Positions 3,046 to 7,871 of a stretch of DNA of 7,906 nt are shown piece after piece; position 1 is the stretch's first letter, and every line of letters begins with the position of its first letter. The DNA is from Chloroflexota bacterium. GTDB lineage: Bacteria > Chloroflexota > Chloroflexia > QHBQ01 > JADMIH01. Below the pieces are notes generated by a model. The model worked only from the letters and a program-made list of their open reading frames with translations. It made no database searches and was not told the origin of the DNA. The position numbers and the translations under genes are program-made. The stretch is from NCBI GenBank assembly GCA_015478675.1, contig JADMIH010000174.1, positions 1 to 7,906 of the forward strand, read 5' to 3'.

Positions 3046-3657
3046 TAGCAATTTGTTCCTGCAACAGGGCAAACGCATCTAAATTGGGGCACGTACGGAG
3101 CGCCACGCATCCATGCCGAACTGAAGGAAGGTGGAATGGCGTGCAGTCTCAACCGTGTAGCTCGCCTCATGCACCAAGCAGGTATACAGGCAAGGAAGCG
3201 ACAGGCATACAAGGTGACCACCACCGATTCCAAGCATAACTACCCCGTTGCTCCGAACACTCTCAACCGGCAGTTCTGGGCAGCTGCTCCGAATCAAAAG
3301 TGGGTCGGGGACATCACATATATCGAGACTCCAGAGGGCTGGCTGTACCTGGCAGCGGTGGTTGACATCGACCCACTCCCGCAAGGTGGTGGGCTGGGCG
3401 ATGGATAGGCACATGGAGACCGACCTGGTAGCTTCGGCCCTGCACATGGCCTCTACCCAGCGGCAACAGAGCAGGGGGTTGCTGCATCACACAGACCAAG
3501 GCAGTCAGTACGCTCCGCACGACTACCAGAAGTTGCTCCGTGCTCACCACATGAGCATGAGCAGGAAAGGGGAGCGCTATGACAATGCCGTAATCGAGAG
3601 CTTTTGGTCAACACTGAAGACTGAGTGCGCGACTCGCGTCTATGCCTCCCGCCTGGA

Positions 3658-3665
3658 AGCTCGTC
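3658..3665 (+). repeat. Left copy of 8-bp target site duplication (AGCTCGTC)
   Basis: AGCTCGTC directly precedes the inserted element and is repeated exactly at 3900-3907. Joining the flanks through one copy gives LEARQSIFEHIEVW, the expected transposase sequence, which shows that this is the original target. Confidence 0.9.
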
Positions 3666-3899
3666 GTAAGTGTTCAGAGTTGGGGTGCAGGGGCGTCCCT
3701 CCCCTCGCCCCATGCCCCTCTCCCCTAGTGGGAGAGGGGGCTTTACTCCTGCTGAGTGCACAGGGGCCTGCCCCTGACGGGGTTACAGGGTTCTCCCCCC
3801 TCTCCCTTCATGGGAGAAGGGCATGGGGTGAGGGTAGTCGGGAGTACACCCGCACAGATACCCCAAGAAGATTGCTCCACCCTAAATCTGAACAGTTAC
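3666..3899. mobile_element. 234-bp IS66-like MITE
   Basis: This non-coding element sits inside the orfB remnant. Its 22-bp terminal inverted repeats (3666-3687 and 3878-3899) match at 19 positions. They begin GTAAGTGTTCAGA on the left and, read inward, GTAACTGTTCAGA on the right. It is flanked by a perfect 8-bp direct repeat. Ends beginning GTAA together with 8-bp duplications are the known signature of the IS66 family, so an IS66-type transposase acting in trans is the likely mover. It has no gene of its own; its interior is dominated by C-rich and G-rich palindromes. The boundaries are exact because excision restores the interrupted coding sequence. The family assignment is inference from the ends and duplication length. 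Confidence 0.85.
3702..3834. repeat. Internal inverted repeats and hairpins of the MITE
   Basis: Bases 3702-3724 and 3812-3834 are inverted copies matching at 21 of 23 positions (core CCCCATGCCC / GGGCATGGGG). Each also takes part in a local hairpin. One is CCCCTCTCCC (3715-3724) with GGGAGAGGGG (3730-3739), loop of five. The other is TCTCCC (3801-3806) with GGGAGA (3812-3817), loop of five, extended beyond one mismatch. Similar CCCTCTCCC-n5-GGGAGAGGG hairpins are common as dispersed repeats in many genomes. Confidence 0.8.
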
Positions 3900-3907
3900 A
3901 GCTCGTC
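3900..3907 (+). repeat. Right copy of 8-bp target site duplication (AGCTCGTC)
   Basis: Exact repeat of 3658-3665, directly after the right terminal repeat of the element. The transposase reading resumes here in the correct frame. Confidence 0.9.
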
Positions 3908-4046
3908 AGAGCATATTCGAGCACATAGAGGTGTGGTACAATCGCCAGCGACGCCATTCGGCCATCGGCTATGTGAGCCCCGAGGTATTCGAGAGGGCGC
4001 ACCAACAAAACATCACCGAGTCATTTGTATCGGGGTAAGCCCACAC

Positions 4047-4116
4047 CCAGTGCCTGTAAGACGGTGCCAATCAGAGGGTGGGCAGCCTCTGATTGGCACC
4101 GTCTTACAGGCACTGG
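4047..4116. repeat. Perfect 31-bp inverted repeat with 8-base loop
   Basis: Arm 4047-4077 (beginning CCAGTGCCTGTAAGACGG) is perfectly complementary to 4086-4116, and the loop is 4078-4085. It starts nine bases after the orfB stop codon. The arms read TGCCTGTAAGACGG inward from each side, which resembles the TG...CA ends of IS3-type elements and the probable terminal repeat at 4271. The pair could be the two ends of an almost completely deleted element, a fold-back duplication, or a small palindromic repeat unit. No T-run follows on either strand, so it is not a standard terminator. Confidence 0.85.
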
Positions 4117-4215
4117 TAGAGTTGATGGGGGTGGATGCCGTGTGCAGTATCTCTCACACGATGTTAGCCTTGTACTCCGGTGAATACTGGTTGCGTAATC
4201 ATTGAGCTTTTTCAT
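4113..4215 (-). pseudogene. IS3-type orfA remnant, opposite orientation
   Basis: On the minus strand an ATG at 4215 opens MKKLNDYAT. One frame over, from 4195, the reading becomes RNQYSPEYKANIV, followed by TGA (4156-4154, probably from CGA) and EIL. Another frame (4142-4113) gives HGIHPHQLYQ. Together these match the start, middle and helix-turn-helix end of the short orfA protein of IS3-family elements (pattern [KR]-Q-Y-S-P-E-x-K ... E-x-G-I-H-P-x-Q-L-Y-x-W). A frameshift, a stop and an internal deletion are present. It breaks off at CAGTG, which is also the outer end of the palindrome arm. The opposite orientation shows that it is not the orfA partner of the orfB at 3088-4038 in its present arrangement. 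The assignment rests on short motifs. Confidence 0.5.
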
Positions 4216-4522: not shown

Positions 4523-5287
4523 ATGGCAATCAGCAATCGCGGCAAAACCGCCAATCAGAGGCCAATGGGCGAAGAATCACCCCGCCCACCCGGACCGGAG
4601 CCTGACGAGCGCGAACAGGGCCAGCGCTGGCAGCGTGAGGAGCGTATTCTGGACGCCGCCGCCGCACTACTGGTGCGCTGGGGCTATCGCAAGACCACGA
4701 TTGATGACGTAGCCCGCGAGGCAGGTGTGGGTAAGGGCACCATTTATCTGCATTGGAAGGACAAAAACAAGCTCTTCAGTGATGTCATCTGGCGCGCAAG
4801 CAGGCAGGTAAGTGAAGAAATGATGCGGAGGGTTGCCGCCGATCCGGAGGGGGGGCTGTTTCATCGCATATGGACCCATGGAATGCTCGCTATCTTCTCC
4901 AATCCTCTCATGACAGCCCTCATGCAAGGGAGTCCTGATATCTTTCAGGGGCTGTTAGATACTATTGATCAGAAGACGCTCAACCAGCTTGTGCTAAATG
5001 CCGACGCTCATATTGTACAGCTTCAGGAGGCGGGACTAATCCGTCCTGATCTTCCGGTTCCCGTCATCACATTTCTGATTGGCTCTCTGAAGATTGGCAT
5101 CATCAACGTCTCTGACCTTATTGGGCAGGAACAGATGCCATCAATAGAACAGCTTACCGAAGGGCTCAGCGACCTGATGCGCAGGTGGCTGGAGCCCGAA
5201 CAACTCCCCGGCGACAGCACTGTTGGCAAACAGATTATGTTCGATTGGCTTGAGCGAGTCAACAAAATTGCGGAACAACTTCAGTAA
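4523..5287 (+). CDS. TetR-family transcriptional repressor of the exporter operon
   Basis: This 254-residue regulator has the TetR N-terminal DNA-binding domain at residues ~38-88. RILDAAAALLVRWGYRKTTI forms the first helices, and the helix-turn-helix lies in DVAREAGVGKGTIYLHWKDK (62-81) followed by KLF. The rest is an all-helical ligand-binding and dimerisation domain with no recognisable subfamily signature. The N-terminus has an extra ~37 hydrophilic residues rich in Pro, Glu and Arg before the domain. An internal ATG at 4565, with AGAGG just before it, would remove 14 of these and is an alternative start. The annotated ATG follows GAAGAGA. It is the first gene of the operon, with a palindromic operator on the promoter, and its stop codon is 18 bases from the ATPase ATG. 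I infer autorepression lifted by a ligand, probably a substrate of the exporter; the ligand cannot be named. Confidence 0.93.
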   Translation: MAISNRGKTANQRPMGEESPRPPGPEPDEREQGQRWQREERILDAAAALLVRWGYRKTTIDDVAREAGVGKGTIYLHWKDKNKLFSDVIWRASRQVSEEMMRRVAADPEGGLFHRIWTHGMLAIFSNPLMTALMQGSPDIFQGLLDTIDQKTLNQLVLNADAHIVQLQEAGLIRPDLPVPVITFLIGSLKIGIINVSDLIGQEQMPSIEQLTEGLSDLMRRWLEPEQLPGDSTVGKQIMFDWLERVNKIAEQLQ

Positions 5288-5290
5288 GAA

Positions 5291-5299
5291 AAGGTGGTG
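5291..5299 (+). promoter_or_regulatory. Ribosome binding site that selects the ATPase start
   Basis: AAGGTGGTG matches the anti-Shine-Dalgarno complement AAGGAGGTG at 8 of 9 bases and lies six bases before ATG at 5306. The two upstream GTG codons in frame (5294 and 5297) are inside this site and so are unlikely starts. Confidence 0.75.
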
Positions 5300-5305
5300 A
5301 AAAGG

Positions 5306-6235
5306 ATGCCGGCAATCATTGAAGTAGAGAGTCTCTCCAAGAGTTATGGCGGCAAGCGTGGAATAATCGACCTCTCCTTCCAGGTGGAGGAGGGCGAAAT
5401 CTTTGGTTTTCTTGGCCCGAATGGCGCAGGCAAAACCACCACCATTCGGCTGCTGATGGCGCTTCTTCGAGCCGATTCGGGCACAGCCCGCATTGCCGGG
5501 ATGGACGTCTGGGAGCAGTCTGTGGAGATCAAAAAGCTGGTCGGCTACCTTCCTGCTGAGCTCTCGCTCGACCCGAGCCTCACCGGCGGGCAAATTCTCG
5601 AATACTTCGGCCACCTGCGCGGCGGCGTCGACCAGGAATACCTGAAAAAGCTGATAGCCCGGCTGGACTTTGATCCTACCCGCAAGTTCCGCCAATATTC
5701 AAGCGGCAACAAGCGCAAGATCGGCATAATTCAGGCGTTCATGCACCGCCCCCGCTTGCTGGTGTTGGACGAGCCGACCAATGGGCTGGACCCGCTGAAC
5801 CAGCAGGAGTTTGACCGTATGATCAAGGAAGTGCGCGCCGAAGGGCGTACAGTCTTTCTCTCTTCGCATATCCTGACAGAGGTAGAGCAGAGTTGCAGCC
5901 GCGTCGCCATCATCCGCGAGGGACAACTGGTGAGGGTGAGCGGCGTGGCCGCCCTCAAGGATATCAAACGGCACGAACTCACCATCACCTTTGCCGGTGC
6001 CGTGCCGGTCGAGGCATTCGAGGCTCTGCAAGGCGTCGAGAGCGTCGAATCGGTGGACGATGGGCATACGCTGCGCCTCGATGTGTCAGGCGGCCAGGAT
6101 GCTATAGTCAAGGCTGCGGCGCAGTATTCGGTGGTGACTATGTCCAGCCACGAACCCAGCCTGGAAGATATATTTCTGCGCTTCTACGAAGGGGACGGCA
6201 ACGCCGACAGGGAGGCGAGCCATGTGGTTCAGTAG
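5306..6235 (+). CDS. ABC exporter ATP-binding protein (drug-efflux type)
   Basis: This 309-residue ATPase drives the permease encoded next. The motifs in order are Walker A GPNGAGKTT (residues 37-45), the Q-loop region with GYLPAELSLDP (80-90), the signature YSSGNKRK (131-138), Walker B LLVLDEP (151-157) with catalytic E156, D-loop NGLDP (159-163) and H-loop H188 in LSSHIL. The signature departs from LSGGQ in the way usual for CcmA/DrrA-like ABC-2 exporters. Residues ~222-295 form the C-terminal extra domain common in these ATPases, including the SHEPSLEDIFLRFYEG end. GTG at 5294 would add four residues but overlaps the ribosome binding site, so I use ATG at 5306. The stop overlaps the start of the permease gene by 14 bases, implying translational coupling and complex formation. 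All catalytic residues are present. Confidence 0.95.
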   Translation: MPAIIEVESLSKSYGGKRGIIDLSFQVEEGEIFGFLGPNGAGKTTTIRLLMALLRADSGTARIAGMDVWEQSVEIKKLVGYLPAELSLDPSLTGGQILEYFGHLRGGVDQEYLKKLIARLDFDPTRKFRQYSSGNKRKIGIIQAFMHRPRLLVLDEPTNGLDPLNQQEFDRMIKEVRAEGRTVFLSSHILTEVEQSCSRVAIIREGQLVRVSGVAALKDIKRHELTITFAGAVPVEAFEALQGVESVESVDDGHTLRLDVSGGQDAIVKAAAQYSVVTMSSHEPSLEDIFLRFYEGDGNADREASHVVQ

Positions 6236-7871
6236 TATCTATCTCAAAACCCTTCGTGATTTCCGTATAGCCATCTTTGGCTGGGGCCTGGGCATAGGGT
6301 TGCTCATGCTCACAGTTCTATCTACGGTCTCGGCCCTGGAGAGTACAGCTGCTGCGCGTGCTTCGCTCATCAGCCTGGCCAGCTCCTTCTCCTGGATCGC
6401 CGAGCCTGTCGCGGTGAATACGCCTGGGGGCTACGCTACCTGGAAATATGGTTTTACTATTCTGGTGATGGCCCTCTGGCCGCTGCTTGTGGGCAGCCGC
6501 ATGCTGCGCGCTGAGGAAGAGCGCGGCTCGATGGATGCGCTACTTTCGCTACCCCGCGGTCGGTGGCGTGTGGCGCTGGAAAAGCTGGCGGCCATGTGGA
6601 CGGCGCTGCTGGTGATAGCACTAATCATCGCCTTGCTGGTGTTTGCGGGCGGCGCAGGCGTCAGTGCTGATTTTGGTCTGGGAGGTGCTTTACTCTTTGG
6701 GCTGAATCTCGCGCTCATCTGCGGCGTCTTTGGTAGCATCGCTCTGCTGGTATCTCAATTCACGCAGGAGGCCGGCCCGGCAGCGGGGGTGACGGGTGGT
6801 TTGCTGCTGCTCTTCATAGTTGTAGATATGATCCATAGGGTCGTCCCCGGCACTGAGTGGCTTAGCCGCCTTTCGCCTGTCTACTACTACAACCTGAGCA
6901 AGCCTTTGGTGCCAGGATACGGTACCGATCCGGTCGCGATGCTGGTGCTGCTGGGCTTGAGCGCCCTCTTGAGCGGGACGGCGCTCTGGCTATTTGTGAA
7001 GCGCGATATAGCCAGGACAGTAACACTGCCCAGATTTCTGCACATGCCTGAACGTGCTGTGCGGCCTGAGTATGCACTGCCGGTGAATGACTGGTCGCTG
7101 CGCTCGATCTATGCGCGCAGCATGGCCAAGCTTGTGGTGCCCACCTTCTGGTGGACAGTTGCTATCGGTGGATTCGCCGCCTGGATGGTCTTCATTGTTG
7201 AGCAAACGGCACAGAAACTCCAGGACCTTTACAATAGCGCACCTTTGCTGAAAGATACAATTACCAAAGTCGGTAGGGGCGATGCCAATACCAATGCCTC
7301 TATCCTGAGTTTCCTCTACCTGATCTTACCTGTTATGTTGATGGCCTTTGCCGTCACCCAGGCGGGTCGGTGGGCTGCCGATGAAGAAGATGGACTGCAT
7401 GAGTTGGTGCTGTCAACGCCGCAGCCGCGCCTGAGGGTCTTGCTCTCGCGATTTGGTGCCGTCGCTACGGCGACGGTCATTATTGGCGTTGTTACCCTGG
7501 TGCTGACGGCTCTGGCCGCCGCGGCTGGCGGCTTGGCGCTTGACGGTGGTAACCTGACAGCAGCCACACTTTCAATAATACCGATGGGTCTGCTGATGGC
7601 GGCGCTGGGCTACCTCTTCTCCGGCTGGCTGCGCACGGCCATAGACACTGGCCTGTTGAGCTTCTTACTGGTGATTTGGTTTTCCATAACTTTCATTGGC
7701 CCGGAATTGAATCTGCCTGAGGGTGTGCTGCGGCTGTCAGCCTTCTACTACTATGGTACGCCTCTGCTGCATGGCCTGCCGCTGGGTGATATGTTGGGTG
7801 TGCTGGCGGTTAGCGCCATGGCACTCGTGCTGGCGTCAGCGCGCTTTGTACGCAAGGATATTGGACGCTAG
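6222..7871 (+). CDS. Duplicated 12-span ABC-2 permease, polyketide-antibiotic exporter type
   Basis: This 549-residue integral membrane protein is the pore subunit for the preceding ATPase. Hydrophobic segments lie at about 17-38, 76-93, 124-143, 154-180, 189-205, 238-258, 306-327, 358-380, 409-438, 448-469, 476-494 and 524-541, giving 12 spans. The two halves are homologous. RAEEERGSMDALLSLPRGRWRV (97 on) matches AADEEDGLHELVLSTPQPRLRV (385 on). RLSPVYYYNLSKPL ending FVKRDIAR (215-265) matches RLSAFYYYGTPLL ending FVRKDIGR (504-549). This size and layout is that of putative exporters of polyketide antibiotics (TnrB3/COG3559-like), where one protein replaces a permease dimer. The ATG at 6222 follows GGGAGG by six bases. 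With the TetR and ATPase genes it forms a regulated efflux operon; the exported compound is unknown. Confidence 0.92.
   Translation: MWFSSIYLKTLRDFRIAIFGWGLGIGLLMLTVLSTVSALESTAAARASLISLASSFSWIAEPVAVNTPGGYATWKYGFTILVMALWPLLVGSRMLRAEEERGSMDALLSLPRGRWRVALEKLAAMWTALLVIALIIALLVFAGGAGVSADFGLGGALLFGLNLALICGVFGSIALLVSQFTQEAGPAAGVTGGLLLLFIVVDMIHRVVPGTEWLSRLSPVYYYNLSKPLVPGYGTDPVAMLVLLGLSALLSGTALWLFVKRDIARTVTLPRFLHMPERAVRPEYALPVNDWSLRSIYARSMAKLVVPTFWWTVAIGGFAAWMVFIVEQTAQKLQDLYNSAPLLKDTITKVGRGDANTNASILSFLYLILPVMLMAFAVTQAGRWAADEEDGLHELVLSTPQPRLRVLLSRFGAVATATVIIGVVTLVLTALAAAAGGLALDGGNLTAATLSIIPMGLLMAALGYLFSGWLRTAIDTGLLSFLLVIWFSITFIGPELNLPEGVLRLSAFYYYGTPLLHGLPLGDMLGVLAVSAMALVLASARFVRKDIGR

Follow-up and report, generated by a model that had tools for sequence, protein, structure and literature searches.

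A probable non-autonomous IS66-type element with a palindromic core, nested in an IS3 remnant of a Chloroflexota bacterium

As a rule, the ends of IS66 family elements begin with GTAA. ISDge4, an IS66 element of the ISBst12 group that is reported to transpose, carries the ends GTGACTACTCAGCA/GTAACTGCTCAGCA and an 8-bp target duplication, CCTCGATG (PMC12898284, excerpt), and an 8-bp duplication is also listed for ISPpa5a and ISPpa7 (PMC3281130, excerpt). Bacterial MITEs have been connected with other families: MITECca01 derives from IS982 and has also been found disrupting other mobile elements (PMC9769881, excerpt), and MITEPsy1 and MITEPsy2 have been linked possibly to IS5, and to Tn3-family ends (PMC3189936, excerpt). 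The element described here resembles these three in being short, non-coding and bounded by inverted ends and, if our reading is right, shares with bacterial MITEs the dependence on a transposase supplied in trans, but it differs from the three in the family to which the excerpts tie them. The passages returned by a literature search on IS66 and MITEs describe no IS66-derived MITE, and a literature search with the end sequences of our element gave no relevant match.

The window, i.e., the whole stretch of 7,906 nucleotides of a Chloroflexota bacterium that was analysed, contains a 234-bp element with exact boundaries at 3666 and 3899, bordered on both sides by a perfect 8-bp direct repeat, AGCTCGTC (3658–3665 and 3900–3907). 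The termini of the element, which read GTAASTGTTCAGA, are imperfect inverted repeats identical at 19/22 positions, or at 21/25 (84%) over 25 bp. The features of the locus are as follows.

3136–3408, plus strand: first piece of a 5′-truncated IS3 orfB remnant, with the HTH_21 tail and the rve start (Pfam)
3374–4038, plus strand: second piece of the IS3 orfB remnant, after the frameshift, interrupted by the element (Pfam and alignment across the joint)
3658–3665, no strand: left copy of the target duplication, AGCTCGTC (repeat comparison and structure scan)
3666–3899, no strand: the whole element, 234 bp, probably a non-autonomous IS66-type MITE (boundaries, structure scan, same-ended elements elsewhere)
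3666–3690, plus strand: left terminal inverted repeat, GTAAGTGTTCAGAGTTGGGGTGCAG (repeat comparison; first 20 bases exact in genome G385)
3699–3740, plus strand: first arm of the palindromic core, with a hairpin of its own, CCCCTCTCCC-loop-GGGAGAGGGG (repeat comparison; free repeats in other Chloroflexota)
3796–3837, minus strand: second arm of the palindrome, 83% complementary to the first, with its own hairpin (repeat comparison, fold)
3875–3899, minus strand: right terminal inverted repeat, reading GTAACTGTTCAGATTTAGGGTGGAG inward from the right end (repeat comparison)
3900–3907, no strand: right copy of the target duplication, AGCTCGTC (repeat comparison and structure scan)

A structure scan for perfect 8-bp direct repeats around an inverted repeat of at least 17/20, with a spacing of 60–600 bp, returned this element as the only instance in the window; there were none in 300 mononucleotide shuffles and 300 order-2 Markov sequences, and none in the 19 related loci, 297,861 bases in all. 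As is usual for a MITE, the element is short and lacks a transposase gene, combining terminal inverted repeats (19/22) with a target duplication (perfect, 8 bp). It is too small for any IS66 transposase, the open frames that cross it are continuations from the flanking sequence, and the nine window ORFs scanned gave no match to the IS66 transposase domain (PF03050, DDE_Tnp_IS66), so the element is IS66-type by its ends only and not an IS66 element proper. The original prediction had placed a 234-bp element with 19/22 terminal repeats at exactly these coordinates, with a perfect 8-bp duplication at its borders and no IS66 gene in the window, and all of this agrees with our results. Taken at the level of sequence, the insertion, its boundaries and its duplication are established. 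For comparison we used 47 genomes of Ktedonobacteria at the class level and 400 Chloroflexota genomes at the phylum level; among the candidates scored, a second copy of the exact 234-bp sequence was found in neither the Ktedonobacteria nor the phylum-wide genomes searched, and this very sequence is presumed to be mobile.

The element interrupts a remnant of an IS3 orfB, the joint lying after LEAR; on the IS66 reading it is nested in a different family, as had been proposed. When the element and one repeat are removed, RLEAR is followed directly by QSIFEHIEVWYNRQRRHS in a single frame and the C-terminal frame is restored. The joint is crossed by the alignments of 29 out of 30 fetched IS3 relatives (the exception is L107), 28 of the 29 being gap-free within 5 residues of it; these relatives are Ktedonobacteria paralogues, 25–57% identical, and not the orthologous locus. 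The earlier claim that deletion restores the conserved protein thus holds for the rejoined C-terminal frame but not for the IS3 gene as a whole, which is truncated and frameshifted apart from the insertion. Its 5′ part is missing, the HTH_21 match starting no earlier than model position 38, and a frameshift near 3370 constitutes a second lesion that splits the rve domain into positions 2–31 and 33–95 (Pfam in both cases). Since the gene was broken beforehand, the effect of the insertion at this locus was probably neutral. The term "excision scar" used in the original prediction is a misnomer, as the data demonstrate insertion alone. Immediately past the IS3 remnant, at 4047–4116, lies a perfect inverted repeat of 31 bp whose loop measures 8 nt. 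A short reading adjoining it on the minus strand (approximately 4134–4215), NQYSPEYKANIV, resembles by eye the beginning of an IS3 orfA, which would place two IS3 fragments face to face.

The remaining genes of the window are of other kinds. An APH-fold phosphotransferase is encoded at 747–1658 on the minus strand (Pfam APH, 160 bits); its best NCBIfam score, 31 against a 400-bit cut-off for the resistance family, indicates that it is not a recognised resistance gene. On the plus strand, 4523–7871 is occupied by an apparent operon in which a TetR-type regulator comes first, then an ABC ATPase and finally an ABC-2 permease of 549 aa. Relatives of the permease (6222–7871) occur in Ktedonobacteria and other MAGs; it is 60–76% identical to proteins of 19 loci, and the best three (74–76%) come from MAGs labelled Ktedonobacterales or Ktedonobacteria.

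The family assignment of the element is suggested by its ends and by the length of its duplication, and full IS66 elements of the same phylum provide the measure for both. PF03050 is present in 26/47 Ktedonobacteria and 87/400 Chloroflexota genomes, and paired ends with an 8-bp duplication (mismatch of at most 1) were found at 17 of the 60 PF03050 loci scanned, in a search that demanded a GTA start. All 11 Ktedonobacteria copies read GTAACTAYTCAG at both ends and have 8-bp duplications, although three pairs among them share a genome, so that they represent about 8 different elements. The six copies outside Ktedonobacteria read GTAACTGCTCAC, GTAACCGTTCAG with GTAAGCGTTCAC, GTAACTGCCTAG, GTAAAAGGTCAG, GTACTTGTTTAG and GTATCCGTCCG. 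Set beside the GTAASTGTTCAG of the window, the GTAACTGCTCAC and GTAACCGTTCAG/GTAAGCGTTCAC ends bridge the gap to the Ktedonobacteria type, GTATCCGTCCG, GTAAAAGGTCAG and GTACTTGTTTAG being more distant; the ends of the window element lie within the range of the Chloroflexota IS66 ends compared, and its 8-bp target duplication is of the IS66 length. Position 7 is A in all 11 Ktedonobacteria copies versus G in the window element, and among the Chloroflexota IS66 loci scanned none had ends identical to those of the window. The features that the element shares with the IS66/ISBst12 group (ISDge4, PMC12898284, excerpt; Ktedonobacteria elements among L040–L067) are GTAA-type ends with TCAG at positions 9–12, imperfect inverted repeats and the 8-bp duplication, while the members of this group measure about 1.5–1.7 kb and encode a transposase, in contrast to the 234 bp, the missing transposase and the palindromic core of the window element. 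One of the Ktedonobacteria elements, L043 (1,540 bp), has a single IS66-like ORF of 482 aa, an organisation likewise found in the ISBst12 group. The earlier attribution of GTAA ends and an 8-bp duplication to IS66 is therefore matched by Chloroflexota IS66 elements, including those of the related Ktedonobacteria genomes, as well as by ISDge4 (PMC12898284, excerpt). In genomes G288 and G380 (L146, L149) divergent IS66-like transposases of 547–558 aa were observed whose ends start with GTATCCTCTCC and which apparently form a separate subgroup; they were considered as a partner and rejected, their GTATCC-type ends being unlike those of the window.

Short elements with the same ends are present in other Chloroflexota. 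The 20-base end of the window element was found at no more than 1 mismatch in 0/47 Ktedonobacteria genomes. At no more than 2 mismatches it gave 184 matches in 17/400 Chloroflexota genomes (1–74 each) versus 12 for the reversed pattern, with about 33 chance matches expected for 400 genomes of 4 Mb and even composition; genomes with one or two matches may reflect chance, and so may single ones, e.g., L122 and L128–L130. The left 20 bases of the window element occur exactly in G385. Opposite ends together with a duplication that is perfect or has one mismatch define 49 short elements (33 with perfect duplications) at 48 distinct targets in nine genomes, namely G067, which holds 26 of the 49, G288, G229, G365, G385, G283, G250, G350 and G139. 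These were drawn from 100 loci, among which some places had been fetched repeatedly; the deduplicated count is 63 distinct end pairs. Chosen regardless of their flanks, the 63 pairs comprise 28 with a perfect 8-bp duplication, 14 with one mismatch, 5 with two and 16 with four or more. The duplication is thus perfect or off by one base in 42/63, versus 0–2/63 after sliding the flank by 1–4 bases. In a count over 70 loci the duplication mismatch was at most 2 in 33; the other 37 either lacked a partner end or had a poorer flank.

In G067, the source of 26 of the 49 elements, the 16-base end is matched 286 times versus 0 for the control, and for one core type both ends are present in 27 of 30 copies, with a duplication mismatch of at most 1 in 22. 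Opposite ends of this genome lying approximately 1.2, 4.9 and 5.4 kb apart were considered as long elements and, among the first 100 of the 286 matches, proved to be separate short elements or unpaired ends; a full-length partner may lie among the others. The exact 16-base end also occurs in 6 viral contigs, where no convincing partner end was found, and was taken as chance. The Chloroflexota short elements resemble that of the window in the GTAASTGTTCASAsTTGGGG-type end, the 8-bp duplications and, in most cases, the palindromic core. They differ in length (82–251 bp, mostly 112–113 or 136 bp) and in their cores; some start with GTAC or GTAT, and most have at the opposite end a CTCC type, which diverges at around base 16 from the right end of the window element. 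The check proposed at the outset, a search of related genomes for further copies with different 8-bp flanks, gave these 49 same-ended elements at 48 targets, the exact sequence not being among them; together with the ends of full IS66 elements, they support the non-autonomous IS66-type reading. As a separate observation, some of the short elements of G067 (L346, L347, L194) stand in close series, and certain targets (GTTCACAC, TTTACCCC, ACCCTTAC) look like the ends of the elements themselves; one element may thus land within or next to another.

The core of the window element is built from two hairpins, one inverted relative to the other. In a DNA fold the whole element has a z-score of −7.24, and none of 200 shuffles was as stable. 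The core hairpins resemble dispersed repeats of the form CCTCACCCC..CCCCTCTCCC-loop-GGGAGAGGGG in Ktedonobacteria and other Chloroflexota, several of which keep the two-hairpin order. Core-like repeats at E ≤ 1e-5 are present in at least 35/400 Chloroflexota genomes, the counts of the core searches being lower bounds with at most 16 candidates scored per genome in Ktedonobacteria and at most 2 in the phylum. These dispersed repeats are akin to the core but lack the flanking end pair: paired GTAA-type ends, one on each side at up to 130 bp, were found at 0 of 55 distinct core-relative loci (71 were considered, the remainder being duplicates or without the strict hairpin pattern). This likeness suggests that transposable ends have come to stand around a repeat and that the element did not arise simply by deletion from an IS66 element. 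Weak Rfam matches to the element (microRNA families, Pseudomon-1), far below gathering scores, were ascribed to the palindromes. Hairpin repeats of the CCTCACCCC/GGGGTGAGG kind were also noted at L026–L038, L069–L084, L316–L344 and L348–L360, the number of first-look candidates reaching 645 in one genome, G312.

Clustering of the cores of the 49 short elements (E ≤ 1e-4) gave four groups, in none of which the core of the window element falls: a GGGAGCGAGGGCG-type (20 elements, 7 genomes), a GACGCAAAGGCGCAAAG-type (26 elements, all in G067), a CTGGGTGCGCGGGCC-type (2 elements, G385), which is by eye akin to the GGGAGCGAGGGCG-type, and a fourth group with one element in G350. The same 16–20 bp ends thus enclose four clustered core groups besides the window's own, two of the four looking alike by eye. 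In G288 the GGGAGCG core occurs at 18 places, of which 4 have both ends (3 of them with a duplication mismatch of at most 1), 7 have one and 7 have none, an end-like 11-mer being found in 109 of 2000 random 70-base windows; the cores with one end or none may represent either shells in decay or free-standing repeats. The cores hint at a conceivable, though in our opinion rather doubtful, role of IS66-type ends as exchangeable shells, each able to enclose one or another palindromic repeat.

Judging from its sequence features, the element in the window is very probably a non-autonomous IS66-type MITE moved in trans by an IS66 transposase of the single-ORF group. Such an enzyme, ISBst12-like and supplied from another locus of the cell, would recognise the GTAASTGTTCAGA ends (22–25 bp) and carry the element into the dead IS3 copy, and repair of the 8-bp stagger would yield the AGCTCGTC duplication; the identity of the transposase in this scheme is suggested by the ends and the length of the duplication. 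The element might instead be a MITE belonging to a different family of DDE transposases, one that likewise makes 8-bp duplications and has GTAA-like ends by coincidence. PF03050 was searched for in 14 of the 17 carrier genomes and had no match in 7, including G067 with its 286 end matches, some of the negative genomes holding just 1–2 end matches; the transposase may therefore be missing from the drafts, lost, or of another family. At L131, moreover, an end adjoins an ORF with an rve domain, IS21-like when judged by eye. This end is unpaired, however, and with about 1.3 chance matches expected at no more than 1 mismatch (400 genomes of 4 Mb, even composition) it was rejected as a partner and put down to chance. 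Against the coincidence also stand the nearest ends found, which belong to IS66 elements of the same phylum with the same duplication length, and the similar match of ISDge4 (PMC12898284, excerpt), and we regard this explanation as quite improbable.

Alternatively, a full-length IS66 element could have inserted here and lost its middle later, never having been mobile as a short unit. Such a history would agree with the failure to find a second copy of the exact sequence in the genomes searched, but the core is a strongly folding palindrome resembling dispersed hairpin repeats, and short elements with the same ends occupy 48 distinct targets, both of which make a decayed IS66 element unlikely. 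As the window could derive from a metagenome assembly, a chance arrangement or an assembly artefact deserves mention too; it is hardly credible given the exact restoration of the protein frame at the joint, the absence of the structure from the 600 randomised windows and the related loci, and the outcome of the slid-flank comparison.

The element, interpreted as a non-autonomous IS66-type MITE, would thus represent a new MITE family of a known kind. The family is frequent in some Chloroflexota, and its clean 8-bp targets allow tests of movement, while in the window itself the insertion is probably of no consequence for the host locus. The occurrence of one end type with differing palindromic cores offers a testable idea for the spread of short intergenic palindromes: if IS66-type ends do act as shells, they could let dispersed palindromic repeats be picked up and spread.
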